In this document: positions 11,480 through 20,391 of the stretch, in pieces
Layout of the letters: every line of letters starts with the position of its first letter
Position numbering within the stretch: the first letter of the stretch is position 1
Source of the DNA: Gordonibacter sp. An230
Lineage (GTDB): Bacteria; Actinomycetota; Coriobacteriia; Coriobacteriales; Eggerthellaceae
Direction of reading: 5' to 3'
NCBI RefSeq assembly: GCF_002159915.1
Contig: NZ_NFJP01000025.1
Location: 1-64,000 of the forward strand
DNA length: 64,000 nucleotides
The notes under the pieces: model-generated
The model's input: only the letters and a program-made list of their open reading frames with translations
Database searches by the model: none
Told to the model about the DNA's origin: nothing
Made by a program: the position numbers and the translations under genes

Positions 11480-13096
11480 ATGAAACGCGTATACTGCCTG
11501 TATCGGGTGTCCACGAAAGGACAAGTCGAGAAAGATGACATCCCGATGCAAAAGCAGGCGTGCCACGAATTCGTGGCCGAACAGTCGGACTGGCATATCG
11601 AAAAGGAGTTTTCCGAAAAAGGAGTGTCAGGCTTCAAAATTGCGGCAAAAGACCGTGATGCCATTCAAGATCTTCAGAAAGCTGCCGTCGAAAAAAAGTT
11701 CGACGTGCTGCTTGTTTTCATGTTCGACCGCATCGGTAGAAAAGAGGACGAGACCCCCTTCGTCGTGGAGTGGTTTGTCCGTCAAGGGGTCGAAGTGTGG
11801 AGCGTAAAAGAAGGCCAGCAGAGGTTTGACACCCATGTCGATAAGCTGCTCAACTACATTCGGTTTTGGCAGGCATCGGGCGAGAGCATCAAGACCTCCA
11901 TCAGAACAAGAACCCGGATGGAACAGCTTGTAAAGGAGGGACATTTCAAAGGGGGGACAGCGCCTTATGGCTATCGCCTCGTTCACAAGGGTCGCGTCAA
12001 CAAACGCGGGCACGAGGTATTTGATCTCGAGATCGACGAGTACGAGTCCACGGTCGTCCGTAGGATTTTCCATCTTCACACCGCCTACGGAATGGGCCCT
12101 CAAACCCTCTCTCGACGCCTTACGGAGGACGGCGTTCTCAACCGTGCAGGAAGGAACTTCGTCGCGCCCTCGATACGCAACATCCTAACGAATCCAATTT
12201 ATAAAGGCGTTCTTCGTTTTGGGGAAACACTTTCCGAGCCTTTCGAGCACCTGAAAATCATCGACGATGAAACGTTCCGCCTCTCGCAAGAGCTGATGGA
12301 GCAACGATCGCGAAACAGAGAAGAGCTGAGGCGTGTTCCGAGGCGCCTCGCGAAAAACTGCCTCTTGGTTGGAAACATCTTCTGTGGTCACTGCGGAGGA
12401 CGGCTTGTCACCTCGACGGCGGGAACAAGATACCAAAGAGCCAACGGAGAGGAAGTCTATCGGCGCTGGTGGCGATACCTGTGCTACAACCGAGTTCGTC
12501 ACAAGGGAGAATGCTGCGGACAGACTGGCTACTCCGCAGAACGAATCGACGAAGCCGTAAGGGAAAGCATACGAAAGCTGCTCGATGGGCTTAAAAAGAT
12601 TCCCATGCAGACCGTCGTGGAGAGGCGCTACGGATTGGCGGTGGACGATCTGGAAAAGCGACTCAACGAAGCACGGCGCATCGAGGCAAAAAGCGAACGG
12701 GGAATCAAAGCCTTGAAGGCCGAGCTTGCCCCCGCTCTTATGGGGGAAAGCAAATTCGACCCCGATCTCCTTGGGGATGCCATACAAGCCGCCCAAGTCG
12801 AACTAGACGAAGCAAGGCGGTTGGTCAACAACCTCGAAAACGAGCTTGCAGATACGGAGACGATAATCCGCACGCTCGAAAGGCAGCATAGTCGTTTGGT
12901 AAGCCTCTCTGAGCTATTCGACGGCTGCGATCTCGATGCCCAAAGAATGGTTATCAGCCAACTGGTCGATGGCGTATATGTCTCATCTGGATACCAGATT
13001 GAACTAAGGCTCAACGTCACGTTGGAGCAATACGTAGAATGCATGGACGAAGCAAGAGCAGGAGGTGAGAAAACGACAATGGTACTGACCGCATGA
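11480..13096 (+). CDS. Large serine recombinase (integrase of the element)
   Basis: 538 residues. The N-terminal resolvase domain starts RVYCLYRVSTKGQVE with catalytic Ser11, followed by VFMFDRIGRKEDE. A recombinase domain follows (about 170-270: GTAPYGYRL, then IRNILTNPIYKGVLRFGE). A zinc-ribbon region has CGHCGGRL and CYNRVRHKGECCG, and a coiled coil spans about 385-490. This is the TndX/TnpX-like architecture of ICE integrases, which cut and rejoin attachment sites without needing a tRNA target. Length is normal and no disruption is seen. It is the last gene of the module and points toward the tRNA-Ala gene 80 bases beyond, so an element end probably lies between them. Attachment sites cannot be identified from one copy. 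Confidence 0.93.
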   Translation: MKRVYCLYRVSTKGQVEKDDIPMQKQACHEFVAEQSDWHIEKEFSEKGVSGFKIAAKDRDAIQDLQKAAVEKKFDVLLVFMFDRIGRKEDETPFVVEWFVRQGVEVWSVKEGQQRFDTHVDKLLNYIRFWQASGESIKTSIRTRTRMEQLVKEGHFKGGTAPYGYRLVHKGRVNKRGHEVFDLEIDEYESTVVRRIFHLHTAYGMGPQTLSRRLTEDGVLNRAGRNFVAPSIRNILTNPIYKGVLRFGETLSEPFEHLKIIDDETFRLSQELMEQRSRNREELRRVPRRLAKNCLLVGNIFCGHCGGRLVTSTAGTRYQRANGEEVYRRWWRYLCYNRVRHKGECCGQTGYSAERIDEAVRESIRKLLDGLKKIPMQTVVERRYGLAVDDLEKRLNEARRIEAKSERGIKALKAELAPALMGESKFDPDLLGDAIQAAQVELDEARRLVNNLENELADTETIIRTLERQHSRLVSLSELFDGCDLDAQRMVISQLVDGVYVSSGYQIELRLNVTLEQYVECMDEARAGGEKTTMVLTA

Positions 13097-13129
13097 TTGC
13101 CGACAGGCACATTGATCATTCTTGATTCC

Positions 13130-13168
13130 GAAAATAAAAAACGGTCGTCAGTTATCGCCGACGACCGT
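13130..13168 (-). terminator. Terminator of tRNA-Ala
   Basis: On the minus strand the tRNA is followed by the 9-bp stem ACGGTCGTC/GACGACCGT and then TTTTTTATTTT, a clear rho-independent terminator. Confidence 0.85.
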
Positions 13169-13176
13169 ATTGAGTT

Positions 13177-13252
13177 TGGTGGAGCATAGGGGGATCGAAC
13201 CCCTGACCTCGGCATTGCGAACGCCGCGCTCTCCCAGCTGAGCTAATGCCCC
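13177..13252 (-). tRNA. tRNA-Ala (anticodon CGC)
   Basis: 76 bases including an encoded CCA. The acceptor arms GGGGCAT and ATGCTCC pair (one G-T), the D-arm is GCTCAGCTGGGAGAGC, the anticodon loop is TTCGCAA giving CGC, and the T-arm is GGGGTTCGATCCCC. It lies immediately beyond the serine recombinase and is intact, so if an element inserted here it did not disrupt the gene. Confidence 0.95.
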
Positions 13253-13463: not shown

Positions 13464-13709
13464 CTAGACACCTCTGCCCCCTTCCGCAGGATCGAAGTCG
13501 TCATCATCGTCGATGTACTTCAAAATGTCGCCCGGCTCGCATTCGAGAACTTTGCAGATTGCATTGAGCGTTGAGAAGCGGATGGCCTTGATCTTGCCTG
13601 TCTTTATGCGCGACATGTTCACGTTGGTGATGCCAACTTTATCAGCGAGATCATTGAGCGACATGTTGCGGTCGGCCATGACGCGGTCCAGATGGAGAAT
13701 GATGGACAT
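13464..13709 (-). CDS. XRE-family helix-turn-helix regulator (YozG-like)
   Basis: 81 residues consisting almost only of one helix-turn-helix: NMSLNDLADKVGITNVNMSRIKTGKIKAIRF with the recognition helix near residues 27-36. The tail is acidic (DDDDDFDPAEGG). It starts 10 bases after the DUF2975 gene, the usual partner of this regulator type, and is probably cotranscribed with it. Function is unknown. The pair is noticeably AT-richer than its neighbours. Confidence 0.85.
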   Translation of the reverse strand: MSIILHLDRVMADRNMSLNDLADKVGITNVNMSRIKTGKIKAIRFSTLNAICKVLECEPGDILKYIDDDDDFDPAEGGRGV

Positions 13710-13718
13710 CGCCGACGC

Positions 13719-14264
13719 CTAAAGGGTTTCGTCCGAAAATTCTTGCAGAAGGACGCCATATTTGAATACGAAAGAGAAAGCGTAAACTACAGCTGCAGCT
13801 ATGAAAGGCGTGAAGTTAACAGTTACTATTGCACTGTTTGTAGAAATATAGCCTGAATTGATTATGTCAATTTGCATAACCGCCACGGCGTTGGTCGCAA
13901 CCATGTCTAGAATCGCATAAAGTAGAAGCAAAGCTGCTATTATCCTCAAACGCTTTACTTGCGACATGGCGAAAGGAGTCTCTCCTTTCGCCGTATTGGA
14001 AAAAATACTTATGAATACGACAAAAAGTGACGCGATGATAAAGCCGTAAGCAAGATAAAGCAGAATGCTGAAGAAACTAATTCTGCCATCCTGGGCAATA
14101 ACAAGACCGGGATTAAACATCGACAAAAGCATCGCACCTACAACAAGTATCCAATAAATACATATTAACCCGAAGACCACTTTTAAACCCACGCTTATGC
14201 AGTTGCAAATTTTCCTAGTTTTTTGAAGAGAGTTATTAGCTTCCTCAAGCTCAACATCAAGCAT
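13719..14264 (-). CDS. DUF2975 membrane protein
   Basis: 181 residues with four likely membrane helices at about 25-45, 65-90, 110-130 and 147-168. It ends in EFSDETL, and the stretch GETPFAMSQVKRLRIIA in the loop before helix 3 is characteristic of DUF2975 proteins. The ATG is preceded by AGGTGG. AT-rich codon use (many AAA, ATA, TTA) sets it apart from the host and suggests horizontal transfer. It is paired with the YozG-like regulator downstream. Function is unknown. Confidence 0.8.
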   Translation of the reverse strand: MLDVELEEANNSLQKTRKICNCISVGLKVVFGLICIYWILVVGAMLLSMFNPGLVIAQDGRISFFSILLYLAYGFIIASLFVVFISIFSNTAKGETPFAMSQVKRLRIIAALLLLYAILDMVATNAVAVMQIDIINSGYISTNSAIVTVNFTPFIAAAVVYAFSFVFKYGVLLQEFSDETL

Positions 14265-14318: not shown

Positions 14319-14346
14319 AAAGCCCCTCTCGTTTGAAAGGGGCTTT
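14319..14346 (-). terminator. Terminator after the peptide gene
   Basis: AAAGCCCCT/AGGGGCTTT form a 9-bp stem with a 10-base loop, reading into a run of T on the minus strand. It starts 19 bases after the stop of the 28-residue peptide gene and so closes the radical SAM cassette. Confidence 0.8.
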
Positions 14347-14365
14347 CGAAGAACCAAAAAAATGA

Positions 14366-14452
14366 CTAGAGGCCAGGAGCGAAGCATATCCCACCTGCAA
14401 TACCGATGTATGGGCAAACCCCTCGCGAATCGTCCTCACTGTAGAACAGCAT
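14366..14452 (-). CDS. Candidate RiPP precursor peptide (28 residues)
   Basis: A 28-residue peptide starting MLFYSEDDSRG with core VCPYIGIAGGICFAPGL. It has Cys13 and Cys23 separated by nine residues and a Gly-rich centre. The ATG lies 2 bases after the radical SAM stop codon, and a near-ideal Shine-Dalgarno AGGAGGTG sits inside the last codons of that gene, six bases before the ATG. A terminator follows within 20 bases. So it is the natural second gene of a two-gene operon. The short acidic leader and small Cys-containing core suit modification by the neighbouring SPASM enzyme, for example to a thioether-bridged (sactipeptide or ranthipeptide) product. The modification itself is inferred. 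No exporter or protease gene is adjacent. Confidence 0.75.
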   Translation of the reverse strand: MLFYSEDDSRGVCPYIGIAGGICFAPGL

Positions 14453-14453
14453 A

Positions 14454-15746
14454 TTACGCACCTCCTCTCTTGTTCTCTATTGCGGCTTTCATGGCCGCTC
14501 CTAAACGGTCGTAGAACTCTAGGGTCATCGCGCAGTAGGAGTCGGGCGACTCCAGACTGCCCGATGCGAACAGCGAGCGGGCTCGGCAGCCTCCCCCGCA
14601 GATTCGCTCGTAACGGCACGTGGCGCAGCCCTCGAAGTTGGCGGCATCCAGGGCGCGGCACCGTGCGGATACCTCGCTTTCCAGCGCCTCCGCAAGCGTG
14701 CCGGCGAAGACGTTGCCCATCGCCAGCTCGGGGCGGTGAAGCATATGGCACGGGTAGACGGTGCCGTCGGCGGCGATGCTCACGCCGCGATAGCCGGCGC
14801 CGCAGTTCCTCTTCACCGTGAGGTTCAGGCCCACGGGGGCATCCATGAGGGCGAGCGGCTTGCCGCCGTCCAGCGTGAGGATGCTCGCGCCCAGCTTCCG
14901 GAGAGCCTCCTCGTCGGGCAGCAGGGCGGCCAGCTCGTCGTCGGGCGCGCACGTGAGCAGGCTGAAGTTCAAAGTGGCGCCCAGGTCTTTCGACAGGCGG
15001 ACGTAATCGGCCAAATCGTCGATGTTGCGCTTGTGCACCGTGGGAATGATGTGCGCCTGGATGCCGGCGGCCTGAACGGCCTTGACCGCGGCCACCAGCT
15101 CGTCGAAGCGCTGCTCTTCCCGGATATAGGCGGGGGCTGATGCCGAGCTGCCGTCGAACGAGATGGATACGCAGTCGACATTCGGCGCGAGCGCGGCCAG
15201 AGCCTCATCGGCAAGGCAGGTGCCGTTCGAGAGCACGGTGACGGACTTGATGCCGCAGGTGCGCTTGGCGTAGGCCACGATGTCGGGCAGGTCGTCGCGC
15301 AGGAACGGCTCACCGCCCGAGATGATGAGCGTGGCAAGGCCGGCGGCGGCCAGCTCGTCGAGGGCACGCTCGATGGCTTCCAGCGGGGCATCTGGCAGGC
15401 AGTTGCGCTGGTCGTCATACGAGTAGCAGCCCACACAGTTCAAGTTGCAACGCTGCGTGACGTGCAGGTAGGCGGACACCACGGCGTCGGCGGGCTTCTC
15501 GTCGCTGAAGAAACCGCCGCGAACCAGATGCTCGAGCAGAGCCGCATCGACGGCGGCTACATCTTCTTCGGGCACGTCTTCCTCAAACAAGCGCGCGCAA
15601 ACAGCAGCCCCTTCCTGAGTGAGGCCAATCGCGTAACCTGTGTCAAGGGACCCCACCATGGGTATCCCTGCGAAATCGAACGACACCACCTTTTCGGCGA
15701 ACCTCAACGCAGACTCCTCACCGCGTCCCTCCCGTACAGAGTACAT
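14454..15746 (-). CDS. Radical SAM/SPASM peptide maturase
   Basis: 430 residues. The N-terminal about 85 residues (VVSFDFAGIPMVGSLDTGYA, ending LLEHLVRGGFF) look like a PqqD-type precursor-binding (RRE) domain. The radical SAM core follows with CNLNCVGC, the CX3CX2C ligand set for the SAM-binding cluster, and LIISGGEPFLR. The C terminus has SPASM ligands: NCGAGYRGVSIAADGTVYPC, CATCRYERICGGGC and a final Cys. Such enzymes install cross-links in ribosomal peptides. The start ATG at 15746 has GAAGGTG upstream; a TTG 42 bases further in (after GAGGAG) is an alternative. The candidate substrate gene follows directly. A LysR gene is divergent, 232 bases away. Confidence 0.9.
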   Translation of the reverse strand: MYSVREGRGEESALRFAEKVVSFDFAGIPMVGSLDTGYAIGLTQEGAAVCARLFEEDVPEEDVAAVDAALLEHLVRGGFFSDEKPADAVVSAYLHVTQRCNLNCVGCYSYDDQRNCLPDAPLEAIERALDELAAAGLATLIISGGEPFLRDDLPDIVAYAKRTCGIKSVTVLSNGTCLADEALAALAPNVDCVSISFDGSSASAPAYIREEQRFDELVAAVKAVQAAGIQAHIIPTVHKRNIDDLADYVRLSKDLGATLNFSLLTCAPDDELAALLPDEEALRKLGASILTLDGGKPLALMDAPVGLNLTVKRNCGAGYRGVSIAADGTVYPCHMLHRPELAMGNVFAGTLAEALESEVSARCRALDAANFEGCATCRYERICGGGCRARSLFASGSLESPDSYCAMTLEFYDRLGAAMKAAIENKRGGA

Positions 15747-15820
15747 ACTATACACCTTCAAACGGACAACCTGAACGCAAGAGGTAAGAAACAAGGAAAC
15801 AAGATTATCCCCTCCATTAG

Positions 15821-15838
15821 TGTAATCTTATGGTTACA
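15821..15838. promoter_or_regulatory. LysR-type dyad between rSAM and LysR genes
   Basis: TGTAA and TTACA flank 8 bases, an interrupted dyad containing T-N11-A-like spacing as in LysR-type operators. It lies in the gap between the divergent radical SAM and LysR genes. Candidate binding site of that LysR protein. Confidence 0.5.
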
Positions 15839-15978
15839 TTCGCAATTACCATTCTCCATCTGGGAAAACAATCTAATTTAAGTCGCCAAGAAAAAGACCT
15901 CAATTTAATGTTTTGCGATAAAATACGACAGGCAGGCAGAAGCCGACGAGCACCCTTTCGGCAGGAAAGCTGACCACA

Positions 15979-16893
15979 GTGAATATCAACCAGTTGGAGT
16001 ATTTTGTAGCAACCGTGCGGCATGGCAGTTTCTCGTCAGCCGCAAAAGAGCTCTTCGTCGCTCCGCAAACCGTCTCGAAAGCAGTCAACGACCTCGAGCG
16101 AGAGCTTCGCGTCAGCCTATATGAGCGAACGAAACGAAGCATCGAGCCAACCCCGTTCGGGCAGATGCTCTCGGCGCGTGCCTCGGAGATACTCTCGCGC
16201 TTGGCCGAACTCGAATCCCTCGCAAAGAACCAGGCATCCTCGCAGACCGAGGAAGGGTCGGCCACTTTCGCCATCGCTTGCTCTCCATGCCGGGGAAACG
16301 CATTGCTCCCGAGCGATTTCAAACCTTTCGACGAAGCGCATCCGCACATCAGGCTCGAACGAACCTTCCATCCGAGCGGAGTGTGCCTTGCCGCCCTCGA
16401 AGAGGGCGTGGTGGATGCGGCCATCGTCACAGGGCGCGTGACGAAGCCCGGAATCGAGTGCGTGCATTTGCTGTCGTCTTCCCTCAGCCTCGTGGTCTCG
16501 CAAAACCATCCTCTCGCCGATCGAAGCAGCGTCGCCCTCGACGAACTGCATGGCACACCGATCGCGGAACCCGAGGATTTGCGTTACTGCCGCAGCGTCA
16601 TCGCCATACGCCTGATGGCAAAGGGAGTCGATCCGGATTTCGTCATCTTGCCGCCTTACGTTGCAAGCCATCGAGCGTTCCTCGAAGACGAGATGGGCGC
16701 ATTCTTCGCCATGAACGACCCCACCCTCGCCGCACTTTACCCTAAAGCCGTCGTGCTCCCCGTCGCCCCCGAGGACCCCGTGTCCATTCCGCTGTGCCTG
16801 GCATACGCGCAAAACAGCGACAACCGCGTACTGGCTACTGTCGAAAGCTACCTGATCAACCTGGCCGCGCGCATGCGCAAGCGGGGCCGATGA
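15979..16893 (+). CDS. LysR-family transcriptional regulator
   Basis: 304 residues from a GTG start preceded by AGGAAAG. The N-terminal winged helix is classic LysR: MNINQLEYFVATVRHGSFSS, AAKELFVAPQTVSKAVNDLE and LFERTKR-like LYERTKRSIEPTPFG. Residues from about 95 form the periplasmic-binding-like effector domain. It is divergent from the radical SAM/peptide cassette with a dyad between them, so it may control that operon as well as itself. The ligand is unknown. Downstream genes run in the same direction but are unrelated. Confidence 0.9.
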   Translation: MNINQLEYFVATVRHGSFSSAAKELFVAPQTVSKAVNDLERELRVSLYERTKRSIEPTPFGQMLSARASEILSRLAELESLAKNQASSQTEEGSATFAIACSPCRGNALLPSDFKPFDEAHPHIRLERTFHPSGVCLAALEEGVVDAAIVTGRVTKPGIECVHLLSSSLSLVVSQNHPLADRSSVALDELHGTPIAEPEDLRYCRSVIAIRLMAKGVDPDFVILPPYVASHRAFLEDEMGAFFAMNDPTLAALYPKAVVLPVAPEDPVSIPLCLAYAQNSDNRVLATVESYLINLAARMRKRGR

Positions 16894-16954
16894 CCGCCCA
16901 AGCCCCGCTACCCCGACATCTCGCGCGCCGCGGACCGAGTAGAAAGGAAACCGT

Positions 16955-17137
16955 ATGGGCACCTTCCCCGATCACGAGCTGAACGCCCGCCTCGCCGAAC
17001 TGTCGAAGATCGCGAGCAACCTGTTCGAACATGCGAGCATCACCGGAACCGTGCGGATCGAGCGCGAGGAAGTGCTGCGCGTCATCGCCGAGCAGTCCGA
17101 ACACGCCCGCAAGCGAATCTCGCGACCGAGAAGGTAG
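16955..17137 (+). CDS. Small protein of unknown function (60 residues)
   Basis: 60 residues, predicted mostly helical, starting MGTFPDHELNARLAELSKIA, with a basic end (KRISRPRR). The ribosome-binding site AAAGGAAA lies 5 bases before the ATG. No signal peptide, membrane segment or known motif is visible. It stands 61 bases after the LysR gene and may be cotranscribed with it. I do not recognise a family. Confidence 0.55.
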   Translation: MGTFPDHELNARLAELSKIASNLFEHASITGTVRIEREEVLRVIAEQSEHARKRISRPRR

Positions 17138-17296
17138 CGGAGCGGACACCGGGATAGAAACCGCCAAAAATCGACTCAACGCATGCGTTCTGCGCCGTTC
17201 GCCGATGCAGGAGAGAGGACTGTGAGAAACGATCCTCGAGCCCGACGCGAGGAAGGCCCCTCCCACCGGCCACGGTAGGCGCGATGCCCCTCCTCC

Positions 17297-17322
17297 CTCG
17301 CGCGGCGAGCTCGCCGCGCGAG
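17297..17322. promoter_or_regulatory. 26-bp perfect palindrome upstream of ApbE
   Basis: The two 13-base halves (left half CTCGCGCGGCGAG) are exact reverse complements with no spacer. It overlaps where a -35 box would sit for the TATACT at 17339-17344. It could be an operator, or a terminator hairpin of the upstream gene, though no T-run follows. Confidence 0.55.
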
Positions 17323-17350
17323 TGGCGGATGCTTGCCTTATACTAGGAGC

Positions 17351-18361
17351 ATGAACGACCAGACGGCATACGACGACCCCATCCCTCTCGAGAGCTCGCA
17401 CGAGACCCGCGGACCCGACGACGCGGGCATGTCGACGCATCTGTTCTACGCGTTCAATACCGTTGTCACGCTGCAAGCCTATGGCGATCCCGCGCAGTGC
17501 TCTGCCGCCTTCGATGCCGCCCGTGCCGCATGCCGCACCTTCGAACGGCGGCTCTCGCGCACACTCCCGCACTCCGACATCGCGCGCCTCAACTCGGCTG
17601 CAGGAGAAGCCGTGACCGTGCATCCCGACACTGCGAAGCTGTTGCGGGAGGCGTTGCGCTACTGCGCCGACAGCGAGGGCCGCTTCGACATCACCATGGG
17701 CGCAGCTGTGCGGCTGTGGAACTTCCACGAGGGGACCATCCCCGATCGCAAGGACCTCAACGAGGCGCTTGCGCACGTGAACTGGCGCATGGTGGAGGTA
17801 TGGAACGAGGAAGGCCATGCGAACGCTTCGGCAAAACGGCCCGTTGGGCCTTGCTGGTTCGCACGCATCCGCGATCCGGAAGCCGCCGTCGACGTGGGCG
17901 GCATCGCGAAGGGATGGATCGCCGATCAGCTTTCCGCGCTCATGAGCGCGTACGGCCTGGCCTCTTTCGTCGTGAACCTGGGCGGCAACGTGATGGCGCA
18001 CGGCTCGAAGCCCGACGGCTCGCCGTGGCGCATCGGGCTTCAGGATCCGCGACGCAAAGACGGCATCGTAGGCGCAGTGGCGATCCGCGACGCCTCGGCC
18101 GTGACGAGCGGCGTGTACGAACGCTGTTTCGAACGCGACGGACGCTTCTACCACCACATCCTCGATCCGCATGACGGGTTCCCCGTGCGAACAGACGTCG
18201 CCGGGGCCACCGCGGTGGCCCGCCGCTCTATCGACGCTGAGGGCTACTCGACCACGCTCGTGGCGCTCGGCATGGAACGCGGTATCGCGTTCGCCCGCTC
18301 CCATCCCGCCATCCTGCGCGCCTTTTTCGTGGACGCCGACGGAAAAGTGCACGAAGCGTAA
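17351..18361 (+). CDS. apbE: FAD:protein FMN transferase (ApbE family)
   Basis: 336 residues. It moves FMN from FAD onto Thr/Ser of FMN-binding domains of exported redox proteins. Seen here are FDITMGAAVRLWNFH, AAVDVGGIAKGWIAD (the D-x-GG-x-AKG substrate site), VVNLGGNVMAHG and HHILDPHDGFPV with the metal-binding region. No N-terminal signal peptide is evident, so it may be cytoplasmic. The ATG at 17351 sits exactly 7 bases after a TATACT (-10 type), so the mRNA may be leaderless; GGAG is only one base upstream. TTG at 17333 is an alternative start. The nearby flavin oxidoreductase lacks an FMN-binding domain, so its flavinylation target lies elsewhere. Confidence 0.9.
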   Translation: MNDQTAYDDPIPLESSHETRGPDDAGMSTHLFYAFNTVVTLQAYGDPAQCSAAFDAARAACRTFERRLSRTLPHSDIARLNSAAGEAVTVHPDTAKLLREALRYCADSEGRFDITMGAAVRLWNFHEGTIPDRKDLNEALAHVNWRMVEVWNEEGHANASAKRPVGPCWFARIRDPEAAVDVGGIAKGWIADQLSALMSAYGLASFVVNLGGNVMAHGSKPDGSPWRIGLQDPRRKDGIVGAVAIRDASAVTSGVYERCFERDGRFYHHILDPHDGFPVRTDVAGATAVARRSIDAEGYSTTLVALGMERGIAFARSHPAILRAFFVDADGKVHEA

Positions 18362-18759
18362 CCCCCCCCCCTTTTTTTTTCCATACGGCACCCCGTCCTA
18401 GCGGCGCAACGCGGCGCCGAATCCGTTCGCTTCGCAAGCCGGCCCGAAGCTCGGACGCAGAGACATCCTGCCGCCAGCATGCGCCACCCCGCAGAACCGA
18501 TCCGATCATGCGGACGCGCTTGCCGCATGGCTCCCGCCCCATGCCGTGCGACATCGTTCGGACAGGCGGGCATCCCGGGTTATACCGCGGGTTACGAAAA
18601 TAACCGCGTTTCCCGCATCGGGCCGATGCGCGCTCTCCCCCCGCTGTCGCATGATGCAGGCCGCGTTGCCGCCGAAGATGCGCCGGCCGTCGCCCAGACG
18701 GCGCTCCGAGGCACCTTCGACGCAGCCAGAGCGACCACCGTTTCGAGGAAGGGGACATC
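18362..18759. other. Gap with no gene; homopolymer tract and dyad
   Basis: No convincing gene. Directly after the ApbE stop is a run of ten C and nine T. Near 18593-18608, GGTTA-CGAAAA-TAACC forms a short dyad that may belong to the promoter region of the flavin oxidoreductase downstream. Confidence 0.5.
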
Positions 18760-20391
18760 ATGTCAAGAACGAATGTAACACGCCGCGATCTGATCAAGCT
18801 CGGAGGGCTTGCCGCCGCAGGCGCGCTCGGCGCTACGGCACTTGCCAGCTGCGCACCGTCCACACCCGAGGAGGCCGCCAAAGCGGCAGACAAGACGGGA
18901 AGCCTAGAGGGTGTGCCCGCATTCTTGCAGGCACCCGAGCCCATCACGGAGTTCGCCGAAACAAAGGAGTACGATGTCGTGGTCGTGGGCGCAGGGGAGT
19001 CGGGCCTGTCGGCCGTCCATGCGGCGCTCGAGGCGGGCGCGAAAGTGGCGTGCATGCAGAACATCAGCACCGTGCAGACGGCGGGCAATATGGCCGCGGC
19101 GCTCGATCTGGACAAAACGAGCGAAGCCGGCCTGAAAGCATGCCTGTCCTTCGTCAATTACAAAAGCGACTGGCGCTCGAACCCCGACCTCGTTGAAGTG
19201 TGGGCCCGCAACTCGCAGGAAGCGCTCGCGTGGTGGGAAGCCGCAGCAGCCGAGGGCGGCGTCGAATCGAAGCCCTACGACTACAGCATCACCTACAACG
19301 GCTACGAGTTCTTCCTGCATGCGAACACGTACTTCCATGTGGACGGCGCGCACCAAACAGCGGCCAAGGTCATCGGCGAGGCGCTGATCGCAGAAGGAGC
19401 CGACTTCATCTTCAACACACCGTGCGTGCAGCTGCACAAGGAAGGCGATCGCGTAGCCGGCGCCATCGGCCGAAACGCCGACACCGACGAATACATACTC
19501 GCGAAAGCCTCGAAGGGCGTCATCTTGGCCACGGGAGATTACGTGGGCAACCGAGAGATGCTCGATTTCTGGGCACCCGACACCAAAGGGCTGCATCAGG
19601 CCGTCGAGTTCCGCGACGGCAGCGGCCTGTGCGCCGGCATGTGGGCGGGCGCGCAGATGACCGCCCCCTGCCACACGAAAATGGTCCACGGAGAGGCGGC
19701 CTCCGTGCGCTTCGAGATGCCGTTCCTGTTTCTCGACCGCCACGGCGAACGCTTCATGGACGAGGGATGCTGCCGCATGGGCTACCTCAACGAATTCAGC
19801 AAAAAGTACCTGGCGGAAGCGGCATTCGAAGACTCCACCGCAACGAAGTTCTTCAGCATCGTGCCCGCAAACTGGCAGGACTACTACGAGCAATGGGACG
19901 CGCTCGCACCCTACGACATCGCCACGAACAACGCCTACCGCACGGTCGACCCCGAAAGCTGGATCAAGGCCGACACGCTCGAAGAGCTTGCGCAAGCGAT
20001 GATCGACTACGCCGACGAGCAGCCATGGAGCCACGAGCTGACCGTAGATGCCATCGTCTCCTCAATCGAACGCTACAACGAGCTGGTGGCGAAAGGCGCC
20101 GACGACGACTTCGGCAAGCGGCCCGAGTACCTCGCGCCCATCGAGGCCCCGTGTTACGCAGTGCCACGCGGAGCGAACAACATCGACGCCATGCTCGACG
20201 GGCTGGAGGTCGACGGCAACTACCAGTGCCTCGACGCTAATCGCACGCCCATCGAGGGCCTTTTCGCCGTCGGCAACGCCTCCGGCCCCTTCTTCGGCGG
20301 CGCCAACTATCCCATGGATATCGAAGGCCTCTCCATCGGCCGCGCCATCACGACGGGATTTGCCACCGGACGCTACGTGGCCGGACTCTAA
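18760..20391 (+). CDS. Tat-exported FAD-dependent oxidoreductase (fumarate reductase/Cgr2-like flavoprotein)
   Basis: 543 residues. A Tat signal (TRRDLIKLGG, residues 7-16) leads to a lipobox LASC with Cys31, so it is probably a surface flavolipoprotein. FAD binding is shown by DVVVVGAGESG at 72-82 and a C-terminal GLFAVGNASGPFFGGANYP. It belongs to the flavocytochrome-c fumarate reductase group of FAD proteins, expanded in Eggerthellaceae, where members reduce fumarate-like acids, urocanate, cinnamates or drugs such as digoxin. It lacks FMN-binding and haem domains, so electrons must come from a separate partner. The substrate cannot be named. The LuxR membrane regulator that follows is the usual companion. 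Confidence 0.87.
   Translation: MSRTNVTRRDLIKLGGLAAAGALGATALASCAPSTPEEAAKAADKTGSLEGVPAFLQAPEPITEFAETKEYDVVVVGAGESGLSAVHAALEAGAKVACMQNISTVQTAGNMAAALDLDKTSEAGLKACLSFVNYKSDWRSNPDLVEVWARNSQEALAWWEAAAAEGGVESKPYDYSITYNGYEFFLHANTYFHVDGAHQTAAKVIGEALIAEGADFIFNTPCVQLHKEGDRVAGAIGRNADTDEYILAKASKGVILATGDYVGNREMLDFWAPDTKGLHQAVEFRDGSGLCAGMWAGAQMTAPCHTKMVHGEAASVRFEMPFLFLDRHGERFMDEGCCRMGYLNEFSKKYLAEAAFEDSTATKFFSIVPANWQDYYEQWDALAPYDIATNNAYRTVDPESWIKADTLEELAQAMIDYADEQPWSHELTVDAIVSSIERYNELVAKGADDDFGKRPEYLAPIEAPCYAVPRGANNIDAMLDGLEVDGNYQCLDANRTPIEGLFAVGNASGPFFGGANYPMDIEGLSIGRAITTGFATGRYVAGL

Follow-up and report, generated by a model that had tools for sequence, protein, structure and literature searches.

A four-gene cassette of gut Coriobacteriia in which a radical SAM-associated micro-peptide co-diversifies with a DUF2975 membrane protein: a candidate pheromone system

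What does a radical S-adenosylmethionine (SAM) enzyme make, and for whom, when the gene behind it encodes a peptide of only 28 residues? The question is raised by a locus in a 64,000-nt stretch of Gordonibacter sp. An230 (NZ_NFJP01000025.1, positions 1 to 64,000; hereafter the window, to which all coordinates refer), which an initial annotation had described as a minimal two-gene system for a ribosomally synthesized and post-translationally modified peptide (RiPP). Comparison with relatives reveals that the usual set is four genes and not two. On the minus strand the radical SAM/SPASM enzyme is followed by the peptide, a DUF2975-type membrane protein and a regulator of the HTH_26 family (an order taken from the window open reading frames, or ORFs, and Pfam), and the peptide and DUF2975 diversify jointly against a conserved background. 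It seems to us, by a small measure, probable that the cassette encodes a radical SAM-modified peptide pheromone that is read by DUF2975 and acts on HTH_26. Loci and genomes that were compared are designated by L- and G-numbers, respectively. The features of the cassette are as follows.

13464..13709, minus strand: HTH_26 (Cro/C1-type) regulator, assigned by Pfam.
13719..14264, minus strand: DUF2975-type four-helix membrane protein, the proposed receptor (or immunity protein), from Pfam search, predicted structure and comparison.
14323..14341, minus strand: terminator-like hairpin with a T tract between the peptide and DUF2975 genes, -18.9 kcal/mol.
14366..14452, minus strand: 28-residue precursor peptide MLFYSEDDSRGVCPYIGIAGGICFAPGL, from its reading frame and conservation in relatives.
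14459..14466, minus strand: putative ribosome-binding site of the peptide, AGGAGGTG, within the last enzyme codons.
14454..15707, minus strand: radical SAM/SPASM maturase with a predicted N-terminal domain resembling a RiPP recognition element (RRE); probable TTG start at 15707, alternative ATG at 15746.

Much of the initial annotation holds at this level: both enzyme and peptide (28 residues) are genuine minus-strand genes with the enzyme domains above their cut-offs, the ribosome-binding site lies in the last enzyme codons (14466-14459), and a hairpin with a T tract follows the peptide (14341-14323). The peptide had been placed two bases after the enzyme stop; the stop codon TAA occupies 14456-14454 and the peptide ATG runs from 14452, i.e. 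from the second base past the stop, with a single base (14453) in between. A two-gene minimal system, on the other hand, is ruled out, as DUF2975 and HTH_26, whose genes lie just beyond the terminator, are part of the conserved set. Hairpins like that of the window were seen in L034, L036, L037, L038 and L076 (17 loci inspected), and terminator-type sites across the region as a whole showed no excess over shuffled sequence.

To describe the spread of the system, the window enzyme was used as a query at E <=1e-40, which returned relatives in 37 of the family's 138 genomes and 52 of the 296 in the class; 43 named enzyme loci were found, three of them distant, in genera that include Gordonibacter, Rubneribacter, Enteroscipio, Raoultibacter, Olsenella and Collinsella. 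An enzyme profile at 1e-60 matched 10 of 296 genomes sampled from the phylum, all within the three families already found, and at 1e-80 it matched 2 of 391 genomes in the class of the Clostridium relative, one of which was the centre genome itself; the sole further Clostridia match (L234) is not among the loci examined. After the removal of duplicates (L093, L096 and L098 at one step) 83 distinct enzyme loci remained. Enzyme, peptide, DUF2975 and HTH_26 occur together at 64 of these 83; in 57 of the 64 the peptide gene follows that of the enzyme, and in the other 7 it precedes it.

The peptide was sought as a short frame starting with MLF and carrying a C...G motif, on the same strand, no further than 1.5 kb ahead of the enzyme or 0.6 kb behind it. 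The constancy of MLF, of the C...G spacing and of a Cys near position 13 is consequently by construction, whereas the final Gly, a second C-x3-G, a second Cys, the position of the gene and its ribosome-binding site lay outside the search requirements. Such a peptide is present near the enzyme at 73 of the 83 loci, in Coriobacteriia and in a few Firmicutes, and the frame is accordingly conserved next to the enzyme relatives, as the initial annotation had anticipated. In a chance control on the first locus set, 63 pattern matches fell in the 204 kb around enzymes on the same strand, whereas 1.49 Mb of other strand-bases contained 2. Both out-of-place matches proved to be members of the system (a split-enzyme locus and an enzyme-free module). 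The peptide is conserved far more than chance predicts. Differences among close peptides numbered 39, 23 and 153 at codon positions 1, 2 and 3 (15 overlapping pairs), and a loosely defined ribosome-binding site precedes 86 of 86 distinct peptides.

These short peptides are hydrophobic and mostly 21-30 residues long. The window peptide has Cys13 and Cys23 with nine residues between them and lacks a Gly-Gly leader cut site, just as first described. Conservation of both cysteines had also been put forward as a check: Cys13 is constant by construction, and the second Cys is not general. At least two Cys after residue 8 are found in 62 of 86 distinct peptides, 60 of these 62 matching C-x3-G-x(2-7)-C-x3-G, and a single Cys after residue 8 in the remaining 24, which are 21-25 residues long. 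A scan of 61 peptides against NCBIfam and Pfam yielded no credible match (one chance match each, E 0.049 and 0.028), and with no such model and a length of only 87 bases the gene is likely to be missed by annotation. At L045 (7290-7757), in a metagenome-assembled genome labelled Lachnospiraceae, four MLF peptide genes stand in tandem behind a single enzyme; next come genes resembling ABC transporters and an Rce1-like protease.

No such peptide was found at 10 of the 83 enzyme loci, where no systematic search for a different substrate was made. Two of them (L042 and L084) have a peptide-DUF2975 pair elsewhere in the genome, L059 and L088 are close to contig ends, and the enzymes of L072, L073 and L075 share <30% identity and probably belong to a different family. 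The others are L069, L214 and L215. L214 and L215 show the order enzyme-DUF2975-HTH_26 with only about 34 nt separating enzyme from DUF2975.

A hypervariable block lies in the middle of the cassette. In the four close pairs L078-L079, L034-L035, L033-L076 and window-L033, the DNA is about 88-99% identical as far as the enzyme stop; identity then falls to about 40-80% over the peptide and most of DUF2975, and returns to about 71-98% from the end of DUF2975 through HTH_26. At the protein level the identities of enzyme, peptide, DUF2975 and HTH_26 are 97/67/58/98% for L078-L079, 96/63/44/97% for L034-L035, 96/89/59/94% for L033-L076 and 94/71/49/84% for window-L033. By comparison, L082-L083, which carry the same allele, give 95/96/94/95%, and L078-L080 give 93/93/77/92%. 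DUF2975 was less conserved than both enzyme and HTH_26 in 136 of 136 pairs. Similarity of peptide and DUF2975 is correlated in a partial Mantel test given enzyme similarity, both among 17 close loci (r 0.66, p 0.001) and among 50 loci (r 0.41, p 0.001). The corresponding values for peptide and HTH_26 are r -0.16, p 0.87 (17 loci) and a weak r 0.22, p 0.004 (50 loci).

The window HTH_26 (PF13443) reaches 83.7 bits against a gathering score of 22 bits, and the window DUF2975 protein (~180 residues) reaches 19.4 bits with PF11188 (E 0.0011), below the gathering score of 27 bits, which is passed by five cassette members of relatives (in G053, G088, G009, G010 and G040). The DUF2975 model consists of four long helices (predicted local distance difference test, pLDDT, 85) and has no PDB match at E <=0.001. 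Topology predicted from Lys+Arg counts is N-in/C-in in 52 of 52 sequences, the partial proteins of L088 and L089 having been excluded from the topology and loop comparisons. Among 15 close sequences, mean pairwise identity is lowest in the two predicted outer loops (0.13 and 0.24) and highest in the inner loop (0.68), the last helix (0.70) and the C-terminus (0.82).

A profile built from the cassette DUF2975 proteins revealed further DUF2975 genes away from the enzyme locus, nearly all accompanied by HTH_26; weaker or partial matches (G013, G004:C49) and PF11188 matches of other subfamilies were not taken in. An MLF peptide lies directly upstream of DUF2975 at 10 of 27 enzyme-distant loci in genomes that possess the enzyme, including one (L177) in the window's own genome, versus 0 of 24 DUF2975 loci in genomes without a detected enzyme (Fisher p 8e-4, an indicative value, as the genomes are related and some are incomplete, e.g. 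G132 at 77%). For this comparison L182, whose contig breaks off 137 nt upstream of the gene, was dropped, L185 with its two DUF2975 genes was counted once, and a stray 74-aa MLF frame about 700 nt distant in L261 was excluded. Eight of the ten peptide-bearing distant modules also have HTH_26. The two that lack it, L187 and L174, are the counterparts of the enzyme loci L042 (G049) and L084 (G086), respectively, which keep HTH_26 and are without peptide and DUF2975. This distribution means that the peptide comes and goes with the enzyme per genome and stays beside DUF2975 per locus; it thus tracks the enzyme by genome and DUF2975 by locus. At a site flanked by a HAD hydrolase gene we found 7 full cassettes versus 4 enzyme-less loci that retain DUF2975-HTH_26 only.

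As for the enzyme, its Pfam scores are 85.9 bits for Radical_SAM (cut-off 29.5) and 37.2 bits for SPASM (cut-off 21.5); it carries CNLNCVGC (CX3CX2C), and these and the SPASM cysteines are invariant across 36 aligned sequences. Translation probably begins at TTG 15707, given the GAGGAG upstream and the alignment with the Met-Arg/Lys-Phe start of relatives. The structure is predicted with a pLDDT of 93.2. Residues 7-63 are predicted to form three strands followed by three helices (pLDDT about 94-97), which is the order found in PqqD/RRE domains, and the structures of CteB and TigE align over enzyme residues 5-408 and 1-411 in a comparison of the full-length enzyme. An RRE/PqqD sequence profile found no match in the enzyme in NCBIfam or Pfam, the N-terminal domain not having been searched separately. 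The closest solved fold is CteB (5why; Z 29.4, 379 aligned residues, root-mean-square deviation 7.0), also the top hit by profile search (E 1.3e-30), followed by ChlB, anSME, SuiB and SkfB (SkfB Z 23.4). The enzymes nearest in fold catalyse differing chemistry, and the fold therefore does not fix the type of link formed by the window enzyme. The best NCBIfam model is StsB (NF045574) at 130.6 bits, far below its 625-bit cut-off. A defence role was considered and set aside, as the PADLOC viperin matches are restricted to the radical SAM core.

From about 200 nt inward, the window enzyme gene is 91-100% identical to that of Gordonibacter pamelaeae L033, and the region upstream of it aligns with Rubneribacter L038 and not with L033. 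This mosaic could reflect recombination, transfer or a mixed assembly.

Upstream of the enzyme two further elements were seen.

15904..15921, minus strand: window copy of the 18-bp upstream element TWATCATWAAACRWTAAA, with 3 mismatches, from a motif search.
15821..15838, no strand assigned: palindrome TGTAACCATAAGATTACA, perhaps a LysR site.

The 18-bp element (<=3 mismatches) precedes the enzyme in 17 of the 18 loci whose enzyme identity is >=58%, versus 7 three-mismatch matches in 1.59 Mb elsewhere, the counts being made in the very loci from which the motif had been built. The exception, L036, has no copy within 284 nt upstream. With <=1 mismatch allowed, 13 of the 14 genomes searched carry the element at the enzyme; the window genome is without such a copy. 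Four further sites turned up in total, and the reversed pattern gave no match. Two of the four extra sites (in G052 and G053) lie between the HTH_26 gene of an enzyme-free peptide module and an ORF of ~220 aa, and the other two are in G062 and G086, where the G086 copy precedes an Xre-type gene. The ~220-aa ORF (L171 892-1551, minus strand, with a matching ORF in L172) starts 48 nt after the first base of the element, and that of L171 (G053) has no Pfam match. Upstream regions of the enzyme-free peptide modules showed no clear shared site. Control by LysR, which the initial annotation had suggested, is weakly backed. A divergent LysR relative stands beside the enzyme in 14 of 68 loci (a lower bound, as flanks were short or masked), and the 18-bp element is kept with or without it (without, e.g. 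in L037, L040, L080 and L084). Palindromes like TGTAACCATAAGATTACA were found in 10 of the 18 close loci; LysR is a neighbour in 8 of the 10, and the palindromes may perhaps be LysR sites.

In the window the divergent LysR gene is followed by ApbE and an FAD-binding flavoprotein gene (15979-20391), with similar genes beside several relatives; these probably form a separate reductase locus. On the other side, a large serine recombinase with Resolvase, Recombinase and zinc-ribbon domains adjoins tRNA-Ala (13177-13252, minus strand) within 11480-13252, a region that is next to the cassette and apparently outside it. Among the relatives, Clostridium lacusfryxellense (L068) has AgrB and a GHKL kinase upstream of and near the radical SAM gene, and Anaerocolumna (L069) has, by reading only, kinase and response-regulator genes upstream of an enzyme for which no MLF peptide was found.

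How might such a cassette work? In the pheromone model the enzyme would use its RRE-like domain to bind the peptide by its short N-terminal portion (MLF...) and would cross-link it at one or more C-x3-G motifs, most probably through a Cys thioether, a proposal founded on the enzyme class and on conservation. The peptide would then exit the cell by a route encoded outside the cassette and might be trimmed. Recognition of the mature form would take place on the cell exterior, at the outer loops of the cognate DUF2975, as the co-diversification and the variability of these loops suggest. DUF2975 would in turn alter HTH_26 activity via its conserved inner loop and C-terminus, and HTH_26 would control the enzyme promoter and perhaps others. 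One enzyme may serve several peptide-DUF2975 modules per genome, as judged from gene content and not from chemistry. What the comparison establishes is gene content, conservation and co-diversification; topology and folds are predictions, and modification, export, sensing from outside and relay to HTH_26 are inferences. It is conceivable, if not quite probable, that we are dealing with an undescribed class of signalling, in which a cross-linked micro-peptide pheromone, a DUF2975 specificity receptor and an HTH_26 response regulator are combined, one maturase feeds several channels and receiver-only strains live in the same genera.

Several observations weigh against the pheromone model. The Mantel test controls for enzyme similarity alone. 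Divergence of DUF2975 extends beyond peptide-bearing modules, as the enzyme-less L256 and L262 share 99% identity in HTH_26 and 45% in DUF2975 (in the enzyme-less Collinsella-type set L263 and L265-L271 both genes are conserved, DUF2975 at 89-100%). Outer loops are often the most variable region of membrane proteins, variability in DUF2975 reaches beyond them to helices 1-3 (about 0.33) and the cytoplasmic N-terminal segment (0.36), and L033 and L076 show little difference in outer loop 3 (0.74). Of the enzyme-distant DUF2975 loci in enzyme genomes, 17 of 27 are without peptide. Inspection of the window neighbours (about 11.4-20.4 kb) revealed no recognisable exporter or protease, in keeping with the initial annotation, and no exporter was recognised beside the other four-gene cassettes inspected. 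Finally, GCTATAACCAAT, noticed by eye in enzyme-less Olsenella-type modules, is absent at <=2 mismatches upstream of 21 of 21 related cassette loci (three of them second copies, one with only 200 nt upstream), and was dropped as an operator of HTH_26.

The chief alternative is a bacteriocin that kills or inhibits close relatives, with DUF2975 as the immunity protein and HTH_26 tuning expression, which we consider unlikely though far from negligible. Immunity proteins likewise co-diversify with toxins, and the joint divergence of peptide and DUF2975 would be expected from such pairs too. DUF2975 proteins of the L256/L262 type could be receivers or immunity proteins for the peptides of neighbours, and the enzyme-less loci at the HAD site suit receivers and equally orphan immunity genes, a further point to be held against a pheromone. 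At 7 of the 83 loci a peptide is present with neither DUF2975 nor HTH_26. Two of these (L044 and L102) are truncated by contig ends, and the other five, which speak for a bacteriocin (L045, L065, L068 and L070 in Firmicutes and L091 in Eggerthellaceae), have ABC-transporter-like genes behind their peptides (by reading; by Pfam for L070), with a CAAX-type (Rce1-like) protease confirmed in L045, L068 and L070, all three tested. Such bacteriocin-like neighbours in the Firmicutes relatives sit uneasily with a pheromone and are comparable to the skf cluster as outlined in PMC8172795, where streptosactin is also described as inhibiting its own producers. On the other hand, the SKF-like set of radical SAM enzyme, protease and ABC transporter was not recognised in the window cassette, and the want of a recognised exporter beside the four-gene cassettes inspected tells against a bacteriocin as well. 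Furthermore, a DNA-binding partner stands beside DUF2975 in nearly all complete loci, including those without peptide, and the parts that are conserved are HTH_26 and the inner loop and C-terminus of DUF2975. We share the preference of the initial annotation for signalling over an antibiotic.

Two other explanations were weighed. The peptide might remain in the membrane or cytoplasm as a cell-autonomous micro-peptide, modified according to an internal state such as redox or iron and acting directly on DUF2975/HTH_26; the short hydrophobic sequence, the adjoining peptide and DUF2975 genes, and a cassette without recognised exporter, protease or classic leader cut site would all agree with this. 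We regard it as rather improbable, as strong allele divergence with coupled outer-loop change fits an external ligand better, and several distinct modules per enzyme are not obviously required to report an internal state. Most improbable of all is a cofactor-type RiPP like PQQ or mycofactocin, in which the peptide would be the scaffold of a redox cofactor and DUF2975/HTH_26 would regulate supply only. Comparison by profile or structure places PqqE and the mycofactocin maturase among the relatives of the enzyme, and the window cassette adjoins a flavoprotein gene, but a scaffold should be constant, whereas this peptide is hypervariable and co-diversifies with a membrane protein, and the flavoprotein/ApbE/LysR neighbourhood is not general, as the LysR count shows. 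A type II toxin-antitoxin system, considered on account of the Xre partner, is not favoured.

Should the pheromone model be correct, it would give a role to the widespread and uncharacterised pair of DUF2975 and HTH_26, provide gut Coriobacteriia, among them Gordonibacter, Rubneribacter, Enteroscipio, Raoultibacter, Olsenella and Collinsella, with a candidate signal between cells, and offer a clear example of a radical SAM substrate peptide co-evolving with a membrane partner. The gene pair itself has a precedent in the YoaS-like/Xre pairs, YoaS being a DUF2975 protein and YozG an HTH_26 protein. The YoaS-like/Xre association is listed in Table 2 of PMC2701414, whose authors excluded such pairs from their toxin-antitoxin predictions, and the passage in question names neither a peptide nor a radical SAM partner. 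The general idea is not new, given that radical SAM RiPPs linked to quorum sensing are known in streptococci (PMC8326336 and PMC13361665), and that PMC8326336 tabulates a quorum-sensing role in clostridia for ranthipeptides derived from SCIFF. A different Eggerthella precursor type appears in a published RiPP listing. In the open-licence literature searched we found no radical SAM substrate peptide that co-diversifies with a DUF2975-HTH_26 pair.

CteB, the maturase of the SCIFF ranthipeptide, and SkfB, a sactisynthase, are the closest in fold at about 20% identity, and their loci differ. SCIFF peptides have six Cys; unlike these, the peptides described here mostly have one or two core Cys. The agr system (AgrB-AgrD-AgrC) resembles the cassette in placing a hypervariable block between conserved genes, a block that comprises the signal and part of its membrane partner according to PMC3673130. 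Unlike agr, the window cassette is without histidine kinase, response regulator and AgrB, and it relies on a radical SAM enzyme to serve its peptide. In streptococci, Rgg binds the SHP peptide inside the cell. The streptococcal radical SAM RiPP loci under Rgg/SHP, which make streptosactin and streptide, also tie a small peptide modified by a radical SAM/SPASM enzyme to regulation, and it is their StsB that supplies the best NCBIfam profile for the window enzyme. In Rgg/SHP, however, a separate SHP peptide acts on the Rgg regulator, as stated in PMC13361665, whereas in the Coriobacteriia cassette it is the putative substrate itself that diversifies in step with a membrane protein paired with HTH_26.

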